From positions 1-31,111 of IMG/VR virus record IMGVR_UViG_3300034418_001534: a DNA stretch of 31,111 bases; one strand, given 5' to 3'. The DNA is from a virus. Position 1 is the first letter of the stretch; every line of letters starts with the position of its first letter. The notes under the pieces were generated by a model. It was not told where the DNA came from and made no database searches. It saw only the letters and a list, made by a program, of their open reading frames with translations. Below are positions 1,739-14,514 of this stretch, piece after piece. A program made the position numbers and the translations under genes.

Positions 1739-1887
1739 TGAAAGAGAAAGAATACCAACCATCTCGGACATCTCCGAGAGGCAGCAAAAGAGCTTGTTAC
1801 TGCAAGGACAAGAACACATACAGCAGAAAATGTTGTGATGGTAGCTTGTGGGCGCAAGGAATAGGAACGATATATCTGATAGACTAA
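1738..1887 (+). CDS. Small Cys-rich protein (49 aa)
   Basis: A 49-residue frame joined to both neighbours by TAATG junctions. It has a basic N-terminal half followed by a CYC motif (residues 20-22), a CC pair (32-33) and the stretch DGSLWAQGIGTIY. The same kind of short protein (CYC...YS.KCC.G..WAQGIG) recurs, as I recall, next to fibre and lysis genes in flavobacterial phages, which argues that it is real. The four cysteines could bind metal or form disulfides. Function unknown. Confidence 0.65.
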   Translation: MKEKEYQPSRTSPRGSKRACYCKDKNTYSRKCCDGSLWAQGIGTIYLID

Positions 1888-2345
1888 TGCGATTGAGTGA
1901 GAATCTAACATTACAAGAGGTAACCAAGAGTAGGACTGCAATCTCTAACGGACTCTCTAACGAGCCAACGATTGAAGCCTTGGAAAACCTTAAGGAAATA
2001 GCTGAAAACATCTTCCAACCGCTTAGAAAACGCTTTGGAGTGCCAATAGGCGTTACTTCCGGTTACCGTTCGAAAGAACTAAACACTTTGATTGGTGGTA
2101 GTAAGACATCTCAGCATATGAAAGGAGAGGCACTTGACATAGATGCACACGTCTATGGTGGAGTAACCAACAAAGAGCTTTTTAATTTCATATTAGACCA
2201 CCTTTTATTTGACCAACTTATATGGGAATTTGGTACTGAAGAAGAACCGGCTTGGATTCACGTCAGCTACAAGAAGAAGGGCAATCGTGGAGAAGTACTA
2301 CAAGCCTTGAAAAGCAATGGAAAAACGATTTACAAAAGAATTTAA
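1887..2345 (+). CDS. Endolysin, peptidase M15A family
   Basis: A 152-residue zinc peptidase that would cleave peptide cross-links in host peptidoglycan during lysis. The M15A core is clear: TSGYRSKELN, then SQHMKGEALDID with the first two zinc ligands at His77 and Asp84, and WIHVSY with the third ligand at His125. Glu114 (WEF) is the probable catalytic acid. The ATG at 1887 is preferred over an upstream GTG at 1848 because it sits in a TAATG junction with the previous stop and still includes the whole domain. There is no signal peptide, so export would depend on a holin; two small membrane genes follow at once. Confidence 0.9.
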   Translation: MRLSENLTLQEVTKSRTAISNGLSNEPTIEALENLKEIAENIFQPLRKRFGVPIGVTSGYRSKELNTLIGGSKTSQHMKGEALDIDAHVYGGVTNKELFNFILDHLLFDQLIWEFGTEEEPAWIHVSYKKKGNRGEVLQALKSNGKTIYKRI

Positions 2346-2346
2346 A

Positions 2347-2499
2347 ATGGATACTACCGACATCAAGGTATTATTCTTGAATGCTTCTACGATGGCACTA
2401 TCATTTTCGGATATTGAAGCAGCATTGAAGATATTACTACTAATTGCATCGATTGGCTACACGGCTCAAAGATGGTATTTAATGAACAAGAAAAAATGA
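2347..2499 (+). CDS. Holin-like small membrane protein 1 (50 aa)
   Basis: A 50-residue protein with one clear hydrophobic helix (residues ~23-38, AALKILLLIASIGYTAQ) and a Lys-rich C-terminus ending NKKK. An in-frame ATG at 2317 would overlap the endolysin by 29 bases. The ATG at 2347, one base after the endolysin stop, is preferred. Location right after the endolysin and before another membrane protein suggests holin or antiholin function, inferred from context. No sequence family recognised. Confidence 0.6.
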   Translation: MDTTDIKVLFLNASTMALSFSDIEAALKILLLIASIGYTAQRWYLMNKKK

Positions 2500-2672
2500 T
2501 TGATAGAATTTTAAGAAATTATAAGACAACATTGGTTGGAATTACGTTATTTGTAACGGGCATTGCACTTGTCGCATATGAAAAAGCGACACTTACTGAA
2601 GCCGGAGCGTTCTTCGGTGTAGCCTTTATGTTATTCTTCTCAAAAGATTCTATCAATGGAAAAAAGTTTTGA
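2496..2672 (+). CDS. Holin-like small membrane protein 2 (58 aa)
   Basis: It starts in an ATGA overlap with the previous gene. It encodes a short basic N-terminus (MIDRILRNYKTT) and two hydrophobic segments, ~17-35 (VGITLFVTGIALVAY) and ~43-52 (GAFFGVAFMLFF), separated by a short polar turn. Two helices with a charged tail fit a class II holin. The paired arrangement with the preceding one-helix protein resembles holin/antiholin pairs. An upstream in-frame ATG at 2472 lies inside the previous gene and is less likely. Function inferred from topology and neighbours. Confidence 0.65.
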   Translation: MIDRILRNYKTTLVGITLFVTGIALVAYEKATLTEAGAFFGVAFMLFFSKDSINGKKF

Positions 2673-2757
2673 TGACTTCATCAGCGAACTAACAAACAAA
2701 CCTCAACCAACGTGCAACATAGACAATCCCGAAGAATGCGATTCTTGTGGAAGTTAA
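2656..2757 (+). CDS. Small Cys-containing protein (33 aa)
   Basis: A 33-residue acidic frame (MEKSFDDFISEL...) overlaps the end of the previous gene by 17 bases and the start of the spanin candidate by 22 bases. It ends CNIDNPEECDSCGS, with Cys20, Cys28 and Cys31. It fills an otherwise empty interval in a tightly packed operon, which supports it. There is no recognisable domain, and it could be a chance frame. Confidence 0.4.
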   Translation: MEKSFDDFISELTNKPQPTCNIDNPEECDSCGS

Positions 2758-3152
2758 AGGTCGCAGTTGGACTGTTAATTCTAACAAGTTGTTCTGCATC
2801 GTGGCACCTCAAACGTGCGATTGCAAAGGAGCCGACCATTGTCCGTATGCAACCGGTCAGACTCGACACAACAATCGTAACAGAAATAAAGGTCGCTAAG
2901 GGCTCTTTTTTTATTGAAGCGGACACTGCCCTCGCTTTTGAGGAAAAAGGCGTTAGAACGGAAATTAGAGTGGTTAGTGATACATTCTACGTTGAAACCA
3001 CTTGCCCACCGGATACGATAACCGTATCCAAAGAAATTTATGTTCCAAAAGTTGTTTATACAGAAAAGTTCTCTAACTTTGACTTAGTTAAGCTTATATT
3101 AGTTATTATAATTATACTTAGCTTATATTCTTCTTTAAGAAGAATTAAATAG
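2736..3152 (+). CDS. Candidate unimolecular spanin (u-spanin) lipoprotein
   Basis: Read from ATG 2736, the 138-residue protein has a lipoprotein signal peptide: basic MRFLWKLK, a hydrophobic stretch, and lipobox LTSC with Cys19. It also has a strong C-terminal transmembrane helix (~116-132, FDLVKLILVIIIILSLY) and a basic RRIK end. An outer-membrane lipid anchor plus an inner-membrane anchor joined by a periplasmic linker, predicted to be mostly beta, is the layout of u-spanins such as T1 gp11, which is of similar length. A spanin would fuse inner and outer membranes after the endolysin acts. It lies in the lysis cassette. A GTG at 2712 would add eight residues but weaken the signal peptide. 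Spanin activity is inferred from topology. Confidence 0.7.
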   Translation: MRFLWKLKVAVGLLILTSCSASWHLKRAIAKEPTIVRMQPVRLDTTIVTEIKVAKGSFFIEADTALAFEEKGVRTEIRVVSDTFYVETTCPPDTITVSKEIYVPKVVYTEKFSNFDLVKLILVIIIILSLYSSLRRIK

Positions 3153-3163
3153 AAAGGGAATCA

Positions 3164-3520
3164 ATGCAATGGACAAATGAAATTGAAATCACGGTTGGAA
3201 AAGTACCTTCTCTCAATGCCTTTTATTCCTCTCGCCATTGGACGTTCAGAAAGCAACAGAAAGATACTTTTAGAGAACAAATTATCAACGAACTTAACCG
3301 TTATGACATTGTTTCTTACAGAAATGCTAAAATCCATATTAGGTGCAATTATCGGTACGACCTTGATAATAGTATTATGGTTTCAAAGTTTGTTTGTGAT
3401 TGTTTGGTTGAGCTTGGATTTCTTGCTGATGATTCCACTAAACATATCGGAGAACTCAAGCTCACGGCTGATAAAGAAATTGAAAAGAATACTGCAATAG
3501 TTAAGATATATCTACGTTAG
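3164..3520 (+). CDS. RusA-like Holliday junction resolvase
   Basis: A 118-residue protein with the RusA signature: PSLNAFY near the N-terminus and RYDLDNSIMVSKFVCDCL around residues 64-81, where Asp66, Asp68 and Asn69 begin the acidic cluster and Lys75 and Asp79 follow. A further acidic pair is Asp89/Asp90. RusA family enzymes are small metal-dependent endonucleases that cut four-way junctions; in phages they resolve recombination or replication intermediates before packaging. It is the last gene before the terminator at 3548-3580. Confidence 0.8.
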   Translation: MQWTNEIEITVGKVPSLNAFYSSRHWTFRKQQKDTFREQIINELNRYDIVSYRNAKIHIRCNYRYDLDNSIMVSKFVCDCLVELGFLADDSTKHIGELKLTADKEIEKNTAIVKIYLR

Positions 3521-3547: not shown

Positions 3548-3580
3548 AGCCCTCACTTCGGTGGGGGCTTTTCTTTTTTT
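3548..3580 (+). terminator. Strong intrinsic terminator ending the lysis unit
   Basis: A nine-base-pair stem AGCCCTCAC / GTGGGGGCT with one T-G wobble closes a TTCG tetraloop. It is followed by TTTTCTTTTTTT. It lies 27 bases after the resolvase gene and just before the T-run/AACCAAC leader at 3607, so it separates the late unit from the next transcription unit. Confidence 0.92.
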
Positions 3581-4378: not shown

Positions 4379-4840
4379 ATGAAAACATCTAAGATTACGG
4401 ACGTTATGTTCGAAGCGAAGTGGAAGGACTTCGACATCTACAAACTGCAAGTGGCGAATGGTCAAACCGGTTCAATTCTAACCAAGACTTGGAAGCCACA
4501 AATTGGAGAGGAGTTCTCTTACACATACGATGTAGAGAAGTCAAGATTCAAGCGTGTTACTGAAAGCTCTTACAGCCCTCAAGGAGCTTCTAAAAGTTAT
4601 TCCGGAGGGAGTGGTTCGAAAGACAAACTAATTGTGCGTCAAGTAGCCTTAAAAGCTGCGGTTGAGTTCTCTGCCGGTCGCAACCTAAAGGCTGACCAAG
4701 TGCTACAAGTAGCTGAGATATTCAACGATTGGGTGAATACCACCGAACAACCGGCTGAAGCTCCGACTCCACCACCGTCTGCGGTGAGAGAACAAGCACC
4801 ATTACCGGTAGCAACGGACGATGATGGTCTCCCTTTCTAA
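4379..4840 (+). CDS. Single-strand DNA binding-like protein with SSB acidic tip
   Basis: The 153-residue protein ends in DDDGLPF, almost the same as the acidic tip (DDDIPF-type) by which bacterial SSB recruits partner proteins. A disordered linker rich in Pro, Glu, Ala and Thr (~120-145, including PTPPPSA) precedes the tip, again as in SSB. The first ~60 residues are predicted beta-rich (DVMFEAKWKDFDIYKLQVAN...), as expected for an OB fold. A middle helical region (~85-117) is unlike SSB. It probably coats ssDNA and recruits host or phage replication enzymes. It is followed by a terminator, and the ATPase gene comes next but one. Confidence 0.65.
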   Translation: MKTSKITDVMFEAKWKDFDIYKLQVANGQTGSILTKTWKPQIGEEFSYTYDVEKSRFKRVTESSYSPQGASKSYSGGSGSKDKLIVRQVALKAAVEFSAGRNLKADQVLQVAEIFNDWVNTTEQPAEAPTPPPSAVREQAPLPVATDDDGLPF

Positions 4841-4852
4841 GAAATAAATGAT

Positions 4853-4884
4853 GGGTGGGCAGTTTAGTCCACCCTTTTTTTTTA
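4853..4884 (+). terminator. Intrinsic terminator after SSB-like gene
   Basis: The stem GGGTGGGC / GTCCACCC (eight pairs, one G-T) closes the loop AGTTTA and is followed by at least nine T. It lies 12 bases after the SSB-like stop. The next coding frame begins only ~10 bases downstream, so some read-through or a new promoter must serve the ATPase unit. Confidence 0.9.
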
Positions 4885-4893
4885 TTATTGGGA

Positions 4894-5073
4894 ATGGAAC
4901 ACTACGAAACATTTTTACAAGAAGCGTTATGGCGAAAAGACTTAGCTTACAAGGAACTCCAAGTCGATTACTATCAACTGCAATGCGACCACGCAGATTT
5001 GCAGATGATGTACGATATGCTGAAACGCAGAATTGACTTTTTAGAAGGGAACGACAATGAAGAACACGATTGA
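4894..5073 (+). CDS. Small coiled-coil protein (59 aa)
   Basis: The start at ATG 4894 (MEHYETFLQEALWRKD...) is chosen because longer upstream starts would lie in the terminator hairpin. The protein is acidic, with regular hydrophobic spacing over residues ~5-48 indicating a coiled coil, and an EGNDNEEHD tail. It overlaps the ATPase gene by 17 bases. It may be a small partner of the ATPase, inferred only from position. Confidence 0.6.
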   Translation: MEHYETFLQEALWRKDLAYKELQVDYYQLQCDHADLQMMYDMLKRRIDFLEGNDNEEHD

Positions 5074-12903: not shown

Positions 12904-13618
12904 ATGGTTGGCTCTTGTTCCAAGCAAGGGCAGACCGGAGGAATTTGCCAAGAGCTGTAAGCCATTACTTGAGACATTGCCGATTGATTCGGCAGTTTTA
13001 CTTGAGAAAAGCGACTACGATAAGTACGACTATCCGAACAAGATACTACTCGACAAAGAGAACCAAGGCATCGGATATGCTATACACTTTGCTCGGCTAT
13101 GGGCAGAGGAAAACGGATACGATGTTATCTTCAAGATAGATGATGATGTTACCAAGATAGGAGCAGTCCACGAGGACTTGGAGACTATCGACCATTACCT
13201 ACATAAATATGAGGATTGTGCCGGAGTGAGCTTCCCATACTCTTTTGAGTTTTACGATGTTACCAAGAAAAAGTTGTTCAGTCATATAAATAAACGGTTC
13301 CAAACTTGTTATATAATAAAGACTAAATTCTTCAAGACAACGGAACGGCTCAAGCAGATAGAGGATTTCTTCTACTATATGATGGCTATTAGAAACAACG
13401 GATTTGTGCTGAGGTGTTCAAAACACCCTATGCACACAGCACCGGTTGGAAGCAATGAGGGAGGAGCGCAATGCTTTGACCGAGCCAAGCTTTACCTTGA
13501 GGACATAAAGTTATTTAAGGAAATCGACCCGACAATCAAGGTTATCCACAAACCGGATAAGCATTGGAAGTACGAGCCGAAACTAACTGATAAAATGTAC
13601 AAGGCTAAGCCGATATGA
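12887..13618 (+). CDS. GT-A glycosyltransferase, TET-associated type
   Basis: The protein begins MKLKNKWLALVPSKGRPEEF, a VPSxGR start seen in phage GT-A enzymes. It has NQGIGYAIHFARLWA (~59-73) and FKIDDDV with Asp85-Asp87 as the metal-binding DxD. It overlaps the ParB-like gene by 17 bases and meets the TET/JBP-like oxidase gene in an ATGA overlap. Glycosyltransferases of this sort next to TET-like oxidases are known from phage hypermodification clusters, where they glycosylate hydroxymethyl bases in DNA. The donor sugar cannot be read from sequence. Confidence 0.78.
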   Translation: MKLKNKWLALVPSKGRPEEFAKSCKPLLETLPIDSAVLLEKSDYDKYDYPNKILLDKENQGIGYAIHFARLWAEENGYDVIFKIDDDVTKIGAVHEDLETIDHYLHKYEDCAGVSFPYSFEFYDVTKKKLFSHINKRFQTCYIIKTKFFKTTERLKQIEDFFYYMMAIRNNGFVLRCSKHPMHTAPVGSNEGGAQCFDRAKLYLEDIKLFKEIDPTIKVIHKPDKHWKYEPKLTDKMYKAKPI

Positions 13619-14514
13619 AAGAACTACACCTCGAACGTAACGAGATTGATGTTGCTAAGTTCAAGAAACGAACAGCAAAACGCTCTGATGTAAGCCAAGT
13701 AATCAAAGAAGATGTAATCATCTACTGCGATAACGAACCGGTCATACTATACAAGAAGCTCAATACAGATACCTCAGCGCTTCGTTGGGCTGTTAAAAAT
13801 ATCGGCTATTCCACCGGTAAGCGTTCGAGAGGATTGGTCTCTACAAGCGCTATATTTGGTTACTCGCCACGAATAGCAATGAGGCACGACTACTGTACCG
13901 TAACGGCTATGGCTATAAACGAGAAGAAGCAACATTATGTTATCACACAATTTGCAAAGGAGCTCGTAGGATATTACAAAGAACACTTTCCCGAGAGATA
14001 CGAGTTCCATACCAAGCTCGTAGAAGAACGAGTGATGCAAGATTGGACTATCGGAGGAAGTCCGTTTACATCGGGTATCGTAAACAAGAACAATCAACTC
14101 AAGTACCACTACGATGCCGGTAACTTCAAAGGTGTGCTATCCAATATGGTTGTATTCAAGAAAGATGTGTCGGGAGGGTATCTTGTAATACCCGAGTTCG
14201 ACCTTGCACTCGAAGTAGCAGACGAGACCGTAACAATCTTCAACGGACAAGATATTCTACACGGAGTAAGCACAATAGAATACGACAACGAACACGCATA
14301 TAGATATTCTGCCGTATATTACTCACTCGAACAAATGTGGAAGTGTGAACCTCTCGATGATGAGATAGCAAGAATCCGTAAAATAAAAACCGAGAGAGAA
14401 CATAAACGTCTCGATGAGGAACACTTAGATACGCTTAGAATAAGAAAGGAAGAACTACAAGGTGCGAGTATCAACGAGCTACTGAAGAACAAGAAGAAGA
14501 ATGACAAAAACTGA
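13615..14514 (+). CDS. TET/JBP-family 2-oxoglutarate/Fe(II) dioxygenase
   Basis: The 299-residue protein carries the double-stranded beta-helix signature. YHYDAGN holds the His165-x-Asp167 iron pair with Asn170. VSGGYLVIPEF follows, then IFNGQDILHGV with the third iron ligand His216, and YRYSAVYY with Arg230 for the 2-oxoglutarate carboxylate. The HxD...N spacing and GGxLVxPE...LHGV pattern is that of the TET/JBP group, which oxidises 5-methylcytosine or thymine in DNA to hydroxymethyl forms. An N-terminal ~90 residues and a charged C-terminal helix (~245-299) flank the core. It sits with two glycosyltransferases and a ParB-like protein. No cytosine methyltransferase is seen in the window, so thymine (JBP-like) or host-made 5mC are both possible substrates. 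Confidence 0.82.
   Translation: MKELHLERNEIDVAKFKKRTAKRSDVSQVIKEDVIIYCDNEPVILYKKLNTDTSALRWAVKNIGYSTGKRSRGLVSTSAIFGYSPRIAMRHDYCTVTAMAINEKKQHYVITQFAKELVGYYKEHFPERYEFHTKLVEERVMQDWTIGGSPFTSGIVNKNNQLKYHYDAGNFKGVLSNMVVFKKDVSGGYLVIPEFDLALEVADETVTIFNGQDILHGVSTIEYDNEHAYRYSAVYYSLEQMWKCEPLDDEIARIRKIKTEREHKRLDEEHLDTLRIRKEELQGASINELLKNKKKNDKN

Follow-up and report, generated by a model that had tools for sequence, protein, structure and literature searches.

A probable unimolecular spanin with a fixed periplasmic cysteine and a cysteine-rich gene nested in a second reading frame

Here we report that the 138-aa product of positions 2736 to 3152 of the window, by which we mean the whole 31,111-nucleotide stretch of viral DNA analysed, is very probably a unimolecular spanin and that the same DNA, read in frame +2, encodes a second predicted protein, B, which together we consider the best explanation of this locus. 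The host probably belongs to the Bacteroidota, judging from the relatives of the terminase (among the matches listed, almost all from Bacteroides phages, at about 39% identity), of the endolysin (best-scoring relative among the matches listed from a Flavobacterium phage) and of one other phage protein of the window, whose matches lie in Nonlabens phages only.

Lysis cassette and spanin anchors

The cassette, encoded entirely on the + strand, opens with an M15-type endolysin of 152 aa without a signal sequence (1887 to 2345), which matches Pfam Peptidase_M15_3 (PF08291; E 8.9e-20, 71.3 bits against a gathering cut-off of 23.2) and the PHROG endolysin family phrog_894 (E 1.7e-33). From its sequence and the features of the family, we take SQHMKGEALDID and WIHVSY to hold the expected metal-ligand pattern. 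It is followed by a 50-aa protein with one hydrophobic helix (2347 to 2499), which gave no matches in Pfam and PHROG searches and has relatives in 34 of the 81 loci described below, and by a 58-aa protein with two hydrophobic helices (2496 to 2672; relatives in 29 of 81 loci), the reading frame of which shares an ATGA overlap with the preceding one. Their position makes both holin candidates, the first, given its hydrophobicity, either a holin or a holin partner. Gene A (2656 to 2757; 33 aa, acidic and Cys-rich, MEKSFDDFISELTNKPQPTCNIDNPEECDSCGS) overlaps the start of the spanin gene by 22 nt, and gene B (2747 to 2899; 50 aa, basic and Cys-rich), for which we predict a GTG start in the window, lies inside it. 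An earlier note on this DNA had listed four consecutive products, namely an M15 endolysin, a pair of small membrane proteins and a protein that combines lipobox LTSC with a C-terminal helix; all four ORFs are present as described, but genes A and B, which both overlap the spanin gene, had been overlooked.

Several features of the surroundings were recorded alongside the cassette. Just 5' of the endolysin gene lies a 49-aa Cys-rich ORF (1740 to 1887; SRTSPRGSKRACYCKDKNTYSRKCCDGSLWAQGIGTIY), which is also found in loci L001 and L002. Downstream of the spanin gene, a RusA-like Holliday junction resolvase gene (3164 to 3520; PHROG E 2.5e-11) has relatives 3' of the spanin in 46 of the 81 loci, in many cases behind a 58-aa ORF absent from the window. 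Directly after it, a hairpin with a T tract resembling an intrinsic terminator (3548 to 3579; one site found, 1.5 expected by chance) probably ends the transcript, and the Bacteroidetes promoter motif occurred at chance level only. Further away, a queuine tRNA-ribosyltransferase-like gene (13615 to 14514; phrog_6059, E 9.5e-41) is possibly tied to modified bases.

The spanin carries the lipobox LTSC, in which the cysteine to be lipidated is residue 19 (codon 2790 to 2792), and, at the C-terminus, a hydrophobic stretch (KD 2.26 over 19 residues) with a positively charged tail. An AlphaFold model of low overall confidence (mean pLDDT 65.5) places a helix at residues 115 to 137 (3078 to 3146; pLDDT about 87-94 in the helix) and predicts six beta strands in the periplasmic part at pLDDT about 50-67; Foldseek returned no useful matches with this model, the low confidence of which makes it too weak for such use. 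An ORF combining a lipobox with a C-terminal helix also appeared in 2 of 12 dinucleotide-shuffled windows, so that two anchors by themselves are weak evidence and the case for a spanin depends on conservation and position.

Relatives were found in uncultured viral contigs, where a first scan yielded 2, a scan with their alignment 16 and a query with an alignment of 14 members 145, from which 80 loci were retained. Together with the window these make up 81 loci. The distinct spanin sequences compared number 103; codon statistics were computed on 38 representatives under 85% identity and tail statistics on 37 complete representatives. Every complete homologue among the 80 further loci retains both anchors (the gene of L076 runs off its contig), which makes a unimolecular spanin the best reading. 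The lipobox ends in SC, GC or AC with an invariant cysteine, and every one of the 37 complete representatives has a tail with a net charge of +1 to +3, in keeping with an N-out/C-in orientation of the single helix. None of the 37 has an acidic residue at positions +2 to +6 after the lipidated cysteine, and the spanin thus lacks the K-(D/E)2-type surface-export signal known for Bacteroidetes (PMC5080379). Upstream, M15 endolysin relatives are found in 35 of the 81 loci and amidase relatives in 29, several contigs beginning too near the gene to tell. The earlier note had proposed a unimolecular spanin and had named homologues without a lipobox or a C-terminal TM as the finding that would speak against it; the homologues keep both, beside an M15 or an amidase endolysin, and this conservation in a locus adjoining the endolysin supports its reading. 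As a positive control, our anchor scan recovers T1 gp11.

In addition to the anchors, the family has a second fixed cysteine, Cys90 (codon 3003 to 3005), which in 102 of the 103 distinct sequences lies exactly 71 residues past the lipidated one, with no indels; the exception, L182, carries Ser. A disulfide, probably between molecules, would be a plausible use of Cys90.

At the sensitivity used, no relatives of the spanin were detected by tblastn against 50,697 GenBank phage records or by pattern scans of 84,980 GTDB genomes; tblastn of genes A and B against the GenBank phages also found none, and Pfam and PHROGs gave no convincing family for the spanin, A or B.

Coding constraint on a nested gene and its stand-alone relatives

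Over the core of B, the codons of the spanin gene are nearly fixed, with Arg encoded by CGT in 102, Ile by ATT in 98 and His by CAC in 97 of the 103 sequences. Among the 38 representatives, the same codon is used at rates of 0.95 for Arg (0.22 expected), 0.95 for Ile (0.35 expected) and 0.93 for Gly (0.40 expected), and these rates drop to near background downstream of the B region. Frame +2 is open in 36 of 38 representatives, whereas 2000 rounds of synonymous resampling gave a mean of 6.5 and never more than 14; the motif [WF]C...P..C.C occurs in 35 of 38, compared with a resampled mean of 0.14 and a maximum of 2. L025, in which frame +2 is closed, is the sole sequence with AGA, ATA and CAT. 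The starts of B are conserved as well, and in L058, L060, L066 and L071 its ATG immediately follows the stop codon of A; a fusion of A and B by frameshifting is therefore not favoured. Constraint on B as a coding sequence is thus evident at the sequence level, and we read it as a separate Cys-rich protein with the predicted sequence MEVKGRSWTVNSNKLFCIVAPQTCDCKGADHCPYATGQTRHNNRNRNKGR, in which neither a signal peptide nor a lipobox is present. Gene callers that forbid nested genes miss it.

Gene A, which ends in CDSCGS in the window, lies upstream of the spanin in all 81 loci, although their relative frame varies by lineage (68 versus 13). In L076, A ends 5' of the spanin start; there A retains a CEACGS end and the spanin has no MRxLW start. 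Further A loci were located by a DNA pattern, and 80 of them have no spanin of this family, which rules out A as a spanin-specific gene. In these 80, the last 20 codons of A show 11753 synonymous versus 5236 nonsynonymous differences.

B also occurs on its own. Within the 80 loci that have A but not this spanin, a six-frame scan gave 18 occurrences of the B motif, all of them on the + strand close to A. When 13,553 ORFs were ranked by a profile of nested B, the top 15 were all adjacent to A (best E 8.8e-6). A separate scan for B only recovered 42 loci; 32 of these were new, and each of the 32 lacks this spanin and has an A-type motif a short way upstream. Ahead of the aromatic-Cys pair (W/F/Y-C), the residue in stand-alone B is K, N, R or V, and in nested B it is nearly always one encoded by xTG, where xTG preserves the TGT codon of the lipobox cysteine; the lipobox is therefore selected in its own frame. 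Since this residue sets nested B apart from stand-alone B, we conclude that the spanin and B frames are both under selection. As a further observation, in most of the loci L092 and L212-L243 the place of this spanin behind the A-B pair is taken by a 121-aa membrane protein (MNPLITKLLGKSAQ...), and B overlaps the start of the gene for that protein.

Proposed mechanism and alternative explanations

We infer a course of lysis in which the membrane proteins would let out the M15 endolysin, which would then cut the peptidoglycan. The spanin, presumably sorted to both membranes, would subsequently collapse or cluster and fuse with or disrupt the outer membrane, as proposed for T1 gp11, and its molecules would probably be joined through Cys90. 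B would be translated from frame +2 directly behind A, the N-terminus of the spanin having been overprinted on B. One could go further and suppose a single functional lysis unit made up of A, B and the spanin, in which the spanin arose by overprinting an older A-B pair and B, perhaps with A, controls when the spanin acts or its redox state; we regard this extension as rather unlikely. If true, it would mean that a membrane-disrupting protein and its regulator are made from one stretch of DNA. Moreover, since B also occurs in related lysis regions as a stand-alone gene next to A, the order of overprinting events is open to examination.

The absence of family matches and of homologues of tested function would also suit a double-anchored envelope lipoprotein with a role outside lysis, for example in superinfection exclusion. 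We think this improbable, since the gene is linked to an endolysin of either type and to small membrane genes across diverged loci, and its anchors and length fit the plan of a unimolecular spanin. The product could alternatively be one half of a two-component spanin, with a coiled-coil protein as its inner-membrane partner: a coiled-coil protein with an N-terminal TM is encoded in 28 of 81 loci and gave a weak match to an Rz-like PHROG (E 1.2e-4). However, blastp found no relative of it in the other 53 loci, which include the window and some short contigs, and the lipoprotein, unlike o-spanins, has an inner-membrane anchor of its own, so that we consider a two-component system extremely unlikely. 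In L002, the coiled-coil protein with this weak match (4421 to 4732) is encoded beside the unimolecular spanin.

It is also conceivable that the conservation of frame +2 reflects a DNA or RNA signal within the spanin gene and no protein, given that the strongest constraint is limited to about 11 codons and that B lacks a family match. Yet the frame stays open far past the constrained core, the starts are conserved down to an ATG directly behind the stop of A, and loci that lack this spanin encode stand-alone B proteins, in different DNA, next to A; folding is not unusual (mean z -0.65), and an Rfam search gave no matches. Such a signal is therefore a very unlikely source of the constraint, and we retain the reading of a unimolecular spanin whose gene also encodes B.

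Comparison with known spanins

The earlier note had presented a two-anchor spanin in a Bacteroidota phage as rare and novel, a claim that was overstated and is out of date because such spanins had already been annotated in the Cellulophaga phages Nekkels and Ingeline (Bartlau et al., PMC8776804) and because a 2025 survey reported the unimolecular type to be the only one used by Bacteroidetes phages (PMC12596118). Two Bacteroides phages with an M15 endolysin, L018 and L019, have a coiled-coil gene with an N-terminal TM right after the endolysin gene (2125 to 2730 and 4390 to 4977, respectively), and we found no unimolecular spanin candidate near the endolysin in either region; these genes sit badly with the claim that only unimolecular spanins are used. 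The Nekkels and Ingeline proteins share a common plan with the spanin described here but no visible sequence relation. Our anchor scan gave one candidate in Nekkels (40598 to 41071; 157 aa, lipobox MMGC) and none in Ingeline_2. The Nekkels candidate also bears a periplasmic cysteine, which may therefore not be limited to the present family.

Like T1 gp11, the spanin combines an N-terminal lipobox with a single C-terminal TM, is of similar length (138 aa, 133 aa in T1) and is encoded next to the endolysin gene (PMC6139136); its periplasmic part may likewise be rich in beta structure, as a low-confidence model predicts. The 58 unimolecular spanins in 13 families catalogued in 2018 include none with a periplasmic cysteine (Kongari et al. 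2018, PMC6139136), which distinguishes them from the protein with Cys90, although the absence there is descriptive and not definitional. A sequence match to T1 gp11 was not found: T1 is among the phages searched, and four spanin members used as tblastn queries gave no T1 match up to E 1 or E 10. Homology to any tested unimolecular spanin was likewise not detected. The present system further differs from T1 in its periplasmic cysteine, in the nested gene in frame +2 and in a cassette that pairs an M15 or amidase endolysin with several small membrane proteins.

To our knowledge, the way in which Bacteroidota phages open the outer membrane has been little tested, and for that step the family supplies a candidate that is conserved, consists of a single gene and has a directly testable cysteine. 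It also provides a clear example of a spanin gene with a small, conserved gene inside it. In lambda Rz/Rz1, a small gene likewise lies within a spanin gene in another frame, and its product is the o-spanin; nested B, in contrast, has neither signal peptide nor lipobox, and the outer gene itself bears both anchors. Relative to known unimolecular spanins, what is new here is the fixed extra cysteine together with a second conserved small gene inside the spanin gene, in another frame.
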